NCBI RefSeq assembly: GCF_001945395.1
Contig: NZ_MSXV01000001.1
Coordinates: forward strand, 1 to 64,000
Length of the DNA: 64,000 nucleotides
Source of the DNA: Pseudomonas sp. PA15(2017)
GTDB taxonomy: Bacteria; Pseudomonadota; Gammaproteobacteria; Pseudomonadales; Pseudomonadaceae
Reading direction: 5' to 3'
The notes beneath the pieces were generated by a model. It searched no databases. It saw only the letters and a program-made list of their open reading frames with translations, and was not told the DNA's origin. Positions 59,528-64,000 of this stretch are shown here, in pieces (position 1 is the stretch's first letter; each line of letters starts with the position of its first letter). The position numbers were made by a program, and so were the translations under genes.

Positions 59528-59531
<4 letters not shown>
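59055..59531 (-). CDS. greA: Transcription elongation factor GreA
   Basis: GreA rescues backtracked RNA polymerase by stimulating transcript cleavage. The 158-residue protein has the N-terminal coiled coil with the acidic tip motif [15 protein letters not shown] (D and E at the tip) and the C-terminal FKBP-like domain ([18 protein letters not shown]). Its start overlaps the carB stop by 4 nt, so carA-carB-greA are probably one transcript. Confidence 0.96.
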
Positions 59532-62749
<3,218 letters not shown>

Positions 62750-62789
62750 GTTCTCTCTCGAATCCTTAGGTCAGTCGGCGAGTCATAAT

Positions 62790-62912
62790 GAAAGCTACTG
62801 CGCGCTATCTGGGCTGCGTTGCGCGGTACTCACTTCCTCGCCGTACTAACACATGTACTGTCTCGTCGCTGCGTGCCGGGCGCCTTGCCCAGACAGCGCT
62901 CGCTACGCTTTC
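62790..62912. repeat. 123-bp imperfect palindrome between carA and carB
   Basis: The outer ends are GAAAGC (62790-62795) and GCTTTC (62907-62912). In register with a 1-nt bulge, GCGCT pairs with AGCGC (62802-62806 and 62895-62899) and TCTGGGC with GCCCAGA (62808-62814 and 62887-62893). The centre holds GTAC at 62843 and 62855. The whole can fold as a long imperfect hairpin. It has the look of a small dispersed repeat (MITE- or REP-like), but no second copy was seen in this window and family identity was not determined. Confidence 0.65.
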
Positions 62913-62924
62913 CAGACGACTCGT

Positions 62925-64000
62925 CTATTTGCGCTTGGCCATGGCTTCGATGAAGCGGTCAAACAGCGGGGCGACATCGTTCGGGCCCGGGCTGGCCTCG
63001 GGGTGACCCTGGAAGCTGAAGGCGTCCTTGTCGGTGCGCTCGATGCCTTGCAGGGTGCCGTCGAACAGCGACTTGTGGATCGGGCGAAGATTGCCCGGCA
63101 GGCTGTTCTCGTCCACGGCGAAACCGTGGTTCTGGCTGGTGATCATCACCACGCCGGTATCGAGATCCTGTACCGGGTGGTTGGCACCGTGGTGACCGTG
63201 CCCCATTTTCAGGGTCTTGGCGCCGGAGGCCAGGGCCAACAGTTGGTGGCCGAGGCAGATGCCGAATACCGGGATGTCGGTTTCCAGAACGTCCTTGATC
63301 GCCCGGATGGCGTAGTCACATGGCTCGGGGTCGCCAGGACCATTGGACAGGAACACGCCGTCGGGATTGAGCGCGAGCACTTCACTGGCCGGAGTCTGCG
63401 CCGGCACCACGGTCAGGCGGCAACCGCGCTCGACCAGCATGCGCAGGATGTTCAGCTTGACGCCATAGTCGTAGGCGACCACGTGGTACGGCAGCTCGCT
63501 GGCAGCGATCTCGGGATGGCTGTCGTCTTTCAGGTTCCACACGCTGGAGCGCCACTCGTAGCGCTCGGTGCAGCTGACTTCCTTGGCCAGGTCCATGCCT
63601 TTCAGGCCCGGGAAGCCACGCGCCAGCTCCAGTGCCTTTTCCTCGCTGGCATCGGCGCCAACCAGGATACAGCCGTTCTGCGAGCCTTTTTCACGCAAGA
63701 TGCGGGTCAGCCGGCGGGTGTCGATACCGGCGATGGCGACGGTGCCGTTTTCCTTGAGGTAATCGGGCAGCGACTGCTTGTTACGCCAGTTACTGGCGAG
63801 CAGCGGCAGATCGCGAATGATCAGGCCGGCAGCCCAGACACGATTGGACTCGGCGTCTTCCGGCGTGGTGCCGGTATTGCCGATGTGTGGATAGGTCAGG
63901 GTAACGATCTGCTGGGCATAAGACGGATCGGTAAGAATTTCCTGATAGCCGGTCATGGCGGTGTTGAACACCACCTCCCCGACAGTTTGGCCGTCGGCCC
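62925..64000 (-). CDS. carA: Carbamoyl-phosphate synthase small subunit, N-terminus outside the window
   Basis: CarA is the glutamine amidotransferase subunit that supplies ammonia to CarB. The visible part (about 358 residues) begins near [20 protein letters not shown], a few dozen residues into the family, and the start codon lies beyond the right edge. The class I glutaminase triad is present: cysteine in [12 protein letters not shown], and the later His and Glu in [11 protein letters not shown]. The frame is open to base 64000. It lies 175 bp upstream of carB on the same strand. Confidence 0.95.

Follow-up and report, generated by a model that had tools for sequence, protein, structure and literature searches.

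The gap between carA and carB in Pseudomonas sp. PA15(2017) is occupied by a palindrome of 149 bp, which we consider likely to be a non-autonomous, MITE-like insertion from a family of elements that is spread over the Proteobacteria. The element extends from 62777 to 62925 of the window (the complete stretch of 64,000 nt which was analysed) and is annotated without a strand. It is short, contains no supported ORF and does not code for a transposase. Copies of the family have a size of about 150 bp and are built on a common scaffold; their arms covary, certain mismatches recur, copies are dispersed, sites are found in filled and in empty state, and TNA repeats flank the copies of one subgroup. 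That the arms change together and that some unpaired bases stay constant points to an old mobile element which has been kept for its fold, rather than to a chance repeat or to the scar of a lost gene. Elements of this kind are already known, and the interest lies in the covariation of the scaffold and in the mismatches that recur within it.

The element lies between carB, which codes for the large subunit of carbamoyl-phosphate synthase (59528-62749, minus strand; NCBIfam NF003671, 1772.9 bits), and carA, which codes for the small subunit and runs off the window (62925-63998, minus strand; NCBIfam TIGR01368, 455.2 bits). The region from 62750 to 62924 holds mechanical ORFs only, none of them supported, which agrees with the preliminary description of a gap without a gene. 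This description had also reported an imperfect palindrome spanning 123 bp. The pairs GAAAGC (62790-62795) with GCTTTC (62907-62912) and TCTGGGC (62808-62814) with GCCCAGA (62887-62893) are indeed found in place and are paired in the predicted fold, GCGCT and AGCGC pair between these two sets of arms, and the GTAC attributed to the centre is present once on each side of the loop (62843-62846 and 62855-62858). The palindrome is thus a long one, but a span of 123 bp is an underestimate, because the dyad continues outward through GGCGAGTC (62777-62784) and GACTCGTC (62918-62925), so that the arms run on to 62777 and 62925. On the minus strand, both outer arms are adjoined by GTAG, the tetranucleotide which also tags REP units.

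The predicted fold of the minus strand (155 nt), which has the sense of the carA-carB mRNA, was equalled by none of 200 dinucleotide shuffles (z -3.41), and that of the plus strand (141 nt) by two of 200 (z -2.65). Raw folding energy is unexceptional in this GC-rich window, where 58 of 313 other stretches of 155 nt fold at least as well. An inverted-repeat search with 9-nt seeds reported none between 62500 and 63100. Folding energy alone is weak evidence for the predicted hairpin, and the strong support is comparative.

All parts of the element are given in plus strand orientation. The left outer arm GGCGAGTCATAATGAAAGC (62777-62795) pairs with 62907-62925 and covaries (helices 1-2 of alignment A2). 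It is followed by the conserved module CTACTGCGC (62795-62803), which places an A opposite another A when folded, by the left inner variable arm GCGCTATCTGGGC (62802-62814), which pairs with 62887-62899 and covaries as helix 3 of A2, and by the left half of the conserved core, GCTGCGTTGCGCGG...CTCGCCGTAC (62813-62846). The apical loop of the predicted fold (62847-62854) separates this from the right half of the core, GTACTGTCTCGTCG...GCGCCTTGC (62855-62888). Then come the right inner variable arm GCCCAGACAGCGC (62887-62899), which is defined by the fold and by covariation in A2, the conserved module GCTCGCTACG (62898-62907), and, as defined by the fold, the right outer arm GCTTTCCAGACGACTCGTC (62907-62925), which abuts the stop codon of carA. 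Modules and core halves are conserved in alignments A1 and A2, and the copies in both show the same scaffold. Its left half consists, from the outside inward, of an outer arm, CTACTGCGC, an inner variable arm, and GCTGCGTTGC with the core up to GTAC or TATC and the loop. The right half proceeds from the loop outward with GTAC or GATA, the core up to GCCTTGC, an inner arm, GCTCGCTACG and an outer arm. Arm sequences vary from copy to copy and their complementarity is kept. Near the loop, other copies carry TATC/GATA instead of GTAC/GTAC (double change in 14 of the 35 A2 rows at columns 73-75 and 86-88).

Alignments A1 (19 copies) and A2 (35 copies) were assembled by hand, both without L039, L040 and the hybrid or truncated copies L046, L048-L050 and L055. 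In A2, 17 rows had been found by BLAST, while 18 stem from the core pattern combined with a filter on both outer modules. The A2 structure of 35 pairs was derived from A2 itself, which favours this structure, and it pairs 91.5% of the cells, with double changes in 25 of the 35 pairs. There are 264 doubly changed cells compared to 90.2 in shuffles, none of which reached 264 (500 shuffles), and pairing falls to 30-43% when the partner is slid by 1-3 columns. Pairing includes the terminal inverted repeats, as helices 1 and 2, which form the outer arms, are paired in 85.4% and 92.4% of the cells. Alignment A3 (50 model-found rows in 48 loci absent from A2) was kept separate from A2 at the level of loci. 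Its rows were fitted to the covariance model, which favours the structure of that model, and 87.9% of the cells are paired, with 441 doubly changed cells versus 157.3 in shuffles (reached by none of 500). Two of five measures failed to exceed the shuffles in A3, namely the number of pairs with a double change (27 versus 25.3, reached by 51 of 500 shuffles) and the number of further pair types (81 versus 80.9, reached by 279 of 500).

The palindrome had initially been taken for a small mobile repeat, for which near-identical copies were expected in a BLASTN search of the genome. Near-identical copies did not turn up, as BLASTN returned the element itself, one partial match of 34 nt (E 6.6e-4) and otherwise weak matches. 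A dispersed element was nevertheless revealed by covariance model R1, which matches 62773-62929 with 138 bits. With E-values that are rough owing to a shortened calibration, this model identifies 27 places in the genome at E<=1 and 24 at E<0.01, the carAB copy and 23 others, and the sequences share the scaffold. Within the 64-kb window, the next best match after the carAB copy has E 0.82. Copies from this genome fall into near-identical groups (e.g. L267/L269 with 98.7% and L264/L265 with 97.9% identity); the carAB copy stands alone.

The assignment as a mobile repeat is further supported by copies at other sites in other genomes. Within the genus, model R1 has matches in at least 108 of 249 genomes (E<=0.01), and in a sample of the phylum it has matches in at least 68 of 398 genomes from 39 of 212 genera (E<=0.001). 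These counts include Pseudomonas sp. PA15(2017) itself and are lower bounds, as 12 and 7 candidates, respectively, were scored per genome. BLASTN against the genus gave a match at E<=0.001 in 27 of 298 genomes (again including this one). Among the 30 loci kept from this search, four are between carA and carB (L001, L028, L032, L033) and the others are elsewhere. The carA-carB insertion was also encountered in P. seleniipraecipitans (L091), P. flavescens (L128), a Pseudomonas MAG (L125) and L174. A scan of GTDB genomes with the core pattern gave at least 120 matches; among the matches listed are Rhodocyclaceae, Accumulibacter, Burkholderiales, Gallionellaceae, Magnetococcales, Desulfocapsa and several Pseudomonas. 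The two-module filter was passed by 29 of the 80 core-pattern loci listed, with some modules misplaced, and the rest have the same core with other outer modules. One core-pattern match (L131) looks like a chance match. Neither the plasmid nor the phage collection yielded a match at E<=0.01, and the idea of a plasmid- or phage-borne element was dropped.

Traces of transposition are seen in the copies of the betaproteobacterial type. In 27 of 34 of these, identical 3-bp TNA sequences (TCA or TGA) are found on both sides, and the middle base is equal in all 27 (shuffle mean 14, maximum 23). Copies with GAACC ends from Pseudomonas sp. PA15(2017) have matching TNA flanks in eight of nine cases, as judged by eye. 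For the carAB copy no TNA target repeat was seen, with GGC to the left and GTC to the right of GAGTC/GACTC. As to element ends, the genome contains 92 of one type versus 4 control matches (up to 3 mismatches). In the 4.3-Mb genome G321 (MAG PRO3, L108), ends of the betaproteobacterial type are present 33 times on the forward and 38 times on the reverse strand with no control match, which is a strong amplification.

A parent transposon with the same ends was not identified among the facing pairs examined in the genome or in the end lists of L108, which contain no pair of IS size when read by eye. Of the 21 facing pairs into which the 92 ends combine at distances of up to 5 kb, 17 enclose 144-239 bp, and the others 562, 1391, 1918 and 2600 bp. 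The pair of 1391 bp (G000:C22:37192-38582, L371), part of which is masked as N, encloses the ORF of an IS481-family transposase and has TCA on both sides. On either side of this ORF, the outer pieces have matches in a different repeat of the genome (left 91-98% over 45-55 nt, right 88% over 69 nt), so we read the IS481-family element as nested in this repeat and rejected the unit as the parent IS. TNA target repeats are a hallmark of IS5 elements. We propose that a transposase acting in trans would mobilise the copies, with an IS5-like enzyme as a fitting source in the TNA subgroup, and that the hairpin may be kept because its folded form is recognised by a protein or by the replication or transcription machinery. 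Facing ends of the same type also delimit other repeats of about 183-239 bp (G000:C8:44766-44970, C14:61107-61311, C29:149-387 and others; L373-L377, L379). These have ATAATC at one end and AAAGTC or similar at the other, and differ in their interior, which has a GGGAGCGGGCCATGCCCGC-like palindrome. The IS481-family element at L371 is apparently nested in a repeat of this kind.

Filled and empty states can be compared at the carA-carB gap itself. A LysE-type gene (PA4757) presumably separates carA and carB in P. aeruginosa PAO1, and on this basis the gap had been regarded as a site of lysE gain or loss. This view found no support when the gap was compared across relatives. A search of 57 genomes, from which 29 loci were kept (L058-L086), gave gaps of 33-138 nt and no gene-sized gap, and in Pseudomonas sp. 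PA15(2017) the insert occupies almost the whole gap; a lysE remnant was therefore discarded. The close relative G001 (97.8% amino acid identity in CarA, 99.0% over the first 582 residues of CarB) has an empty gap of 37 nt, compared to 178 nt by the same measure in the filled allele, and the gaps of five more relatives measure 33-39 nt. By eye, the filled allele has nothing that corresponds to 9 nt of the empty one. The end of carA also differs when inspected by eye: the filled allele ends with KRK and TAG, the empty one of G001 with KRR and TAA, and more generally filled alleles have KRK or KRQ and the six short-gap alleles RR. In a tree of carA and carB, the filled alleles are scattered over three positions between empty ones, and the filled L174, which has partly missing data, groups nearer to Pseudomonas sp. 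PA15(2017) (support 0.81) than does the empty G001. With this patchy distribution and the placement of L174, gain, loss and transfer by recombination are indistinguishable.

The same junctions are filled in several genomes in other cases, too. The element occupies the urtC-urtD junction in L030 (assigned by NCBIfam) and in L031 and L034-L036 (matching flanks), while the two genes are joined directly in the 24 relatives shown. It is found at the end of urtB in L042 (NCBIfam) and L043 (flanks), with five relatives shown without insert, and at the end of dapE in L044 (NCBIfam), L054 and L056 (flanks). At the urtC-urtD junction, the UrtC stop codon is within the left arm of the element.

Recurrence at operon junctions (carA-carB, urtC-urtD, ends of urtB and dapE), together with covarying stems and recurrent mismatches, would also be expected of a structured RNA element which is not mobile at present and is kept because it adjusts the processing of the mRNA or the relative expression of the genes, a role which is known for some REP and ERIC hairpins. 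We regard this as possible, if on balance doubtful. It is at odds with the lack of a bias for the transcribed strand and with copies between convergent and divergent genes: among 88 copies with two neighbours, genes are co-directional in 24 and 26 cases (either sense), convergent in 20 and divergent in 18. In this count, neighbours are mechanical ORFs, 33 copies are flagged as being inside an ORF, and 32 with a one-sided neighbour are left out. The 51 clean cases are distributed as 14, 13, 17 and 7 over the same classes, the divergent being fewest. A strand-specific RNA role was thus rejected. Two copies in terminator loops which are missing in G001 (see below) also speak against a resident RNA, as do the covariance models of Rfam, which had no match at E<=1 between 61000 and 64000, so that a known Rfam family was discarded as well.

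Scans of 62600-63100 for intrinsic-terminator and sigma-70 promoter patterns found none (shuffles 0.3 and 0.2), so that both were rejected for this gap and the element should not stop the carA-carB operon. With the insertion at the end of carA, the carA-carB mRNA would contain a long hairpin 27 nt before the start of carB, which could attract RNase III or change the decay of the transcript. Locally, the element is likely to act on the processing or the stability of the mRNA and not on termination, and the effect on carA:carB expression which had been suggested for the RNA hairpin is possible.

Two copies in the genome are located in the loop of a terminator-like hairpin (L264, G000:C29:16656-16807; L268, G000:C14:211085-211254). 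Both hairpins are uninterrupted in G001 (L295, L302), where they read AGCCGGCGCC-CTGT-GCGCCGGCTTTTT and AAAAAACGCGCC-TAAGG-GCGCGTTTTTT. The pattern scan reported the terminator in L295 but not that in L302 (1300-1700), which was read by eye and was probably missed owing to pairing between its A and T tracts. Stems of 8-10 bp just outside the element exist for five of the 24 copies in the genome, while crossed flanks reach 8 bp in 5 of 552 combinations and never more. These cases raise the possibility that the carAB copy, too, has inserted into a pre-existing hairpin between carA and carB, of which the outer arms would be the remains. In line with this, long-gap relatives have AAGCCGTCTTGAA where L028 has GAGTCATCTTGAG. 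We consider such an origin unlikely. By eye, six short-gap relatives including G001 lack such a hairpin, and model R1 finds nothing at E<=10 in the carA-carB loci of the 29 relatives. The sequences just outside the carAB copy pair over 5 nt, which is no better than chance, as 318 of the 552 crossed pairs reach this value. Empty relatives at the urtC-urtD junction and at the end of urtB imply that there the arms arrived with the element, and the carAB site resembles the urt case, not that of the terminator loops. The longer gaps of relatives (107-138 nt, in L064-L086) hold other GC-rich hairpins, e.g. GGGGGCCGCC...GGGGCCGCCC, which are similar between several species; having no model match at E<=10, they were rejected as homologues of the element.

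Complementary arms could also be produced by template switching during replication, which perfects a palindrome by copying one arm from the other without any selection for structure. Arms that vary by site and species yet stay complementary conform to this; at one and the same site, for instance, L001 has GAAAGC/GCTTTC and L028 has GAGAGC/GCTCTC. However, copying from arm to arm would erase mismatches, and a C.C mismatch (columns 46/115), which is outside of the search pattern and the module filter, persists in 33 of 35 A2 rows and 47 of 50 A3 rows. In columns 26/138, an A or G faces an A, with a standard pair in none of the 35 A2 rows and none of the 50 A3 rows. In the core, the mismatches C.C 67/94 and T.T 68/93 are each found in 33 of 35 A2 rows, C.T 72/89 in 31 and C.C 69/92 in 30. 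Part of this conservation is imposed by the way the A2 rows were sampled, but the core mismatches recur in 12 to 15 of the 17 BLAST-found rows (15 for T.T 68/93). The T.C mismatch in columns 25/139 is less uniform: present in 33 of 35 A2 rows, it drops to 30 of 50 in A3 and to 7 of 24 among the rows taken from the genome itself. With this caution about sampling, we read the fold as selected and consider template switching very unlikely as the origin of the complementarity. A chance GC-rich hairpin or a lysE remnant, which would agree with the unexceptional folding energy, can be dismissed, as the same scaffold occurs in many genera, the insert fills a gap which is not gene-sized in any of the 29 relatives, and a single-copy hairpin is contradicted by the model matches in genome, genus and phylum.

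Among known elements, the carAB element is closest in behaviour to YPAL/RU-2 and ERIC. YPAL reportedly overlaps with terminators, according to the YPAL paper from 2006. ERIC has termini with TA, whereas in the family described here the ends differ among subgroups and arms are replaced with compensation. MITEs of the IS5 family share short terminal inverted repeats and the 3-bp TNA, and the carAB family differs from them by its interior with a conserved hairpin scaffold. YPAL/RU-2 is the nearest, being palindromic, intergenic and found with target repeats and in filled and empty sites; sections of PMC2229807 give a size of about 168 bp, an occurrence in Yersinia and Erwinia carotovora, target repeats of 3 to 26 bp, and targets that span or adjoin a dyad symmetry. 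In a comparison by description, the family of the carAB element differs in being phylum-wide and in having a 3-bp TNA in one large subgroup. ERIC (IRU, RU-1) elements are described in parts of PMC2759123 and PMC2229807 as small mobile intergenic palindromic repeats of 127 bp. Several of the P. fluorescens repeats (R0, R1, R2, R6 and others) have inverted repeats and are MITE-like according to excerpts of PMC2718517, for example R2 (110 bp with 43-bp arms) and R6 (177 bp with 34-bp arms), and they are mostly arranged tail-to-tail and rarely head-to-head. Judged by their description, these families may include relatives of the carAB element. Repeats of the REP, REPIN and RAYT-associated TIR type are palindromic and some are inserted inside other palindromes, but REP units have only 20-40 bp (both from portions of PMC3733652), while the carAB element is a single hairpin of 150 bp. 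A MITE review (PMC10969869) and a survey of stem-loop families (PMC2267715) treat such elements family by family. Searches of open-access literature gave no description of this scaffold, and the papers which matched words of the core had unrelated titles.

Most short palindromic repeats have been defined one species at a time from a consensus of their sequences. The covariance model links copies which BLAST leaves unlinked, both within the genome and in 39 of the 212 sampled genera of the phylum. Should the fold be what selection maintains, the recurrent mismatches would indicate a protein which binds it. Extending this, one may imagine a pan-proteobacterial class of mobile elements for which the folded single strand is the conserved identity, arms and ends being freely replaced with compensation. 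A conserved recombinase or a protein of the host would then read the recurrent mismatches and a few short modules, while some subgroups would enter hairpin loops such as those of terminators. We put this forward tentatively and as rather doubtful. The filled and empty alleles at carA-carB, at urtC-urtD and at the two terminators provide natural pairs for the study of operon expression and termination.

In several hybrid copies (L046, L048, L050, L055, L155), one half of the hairpin has been replaced by modules of other palindromic repeats, which suggests nested insertion or an exchange of modules.
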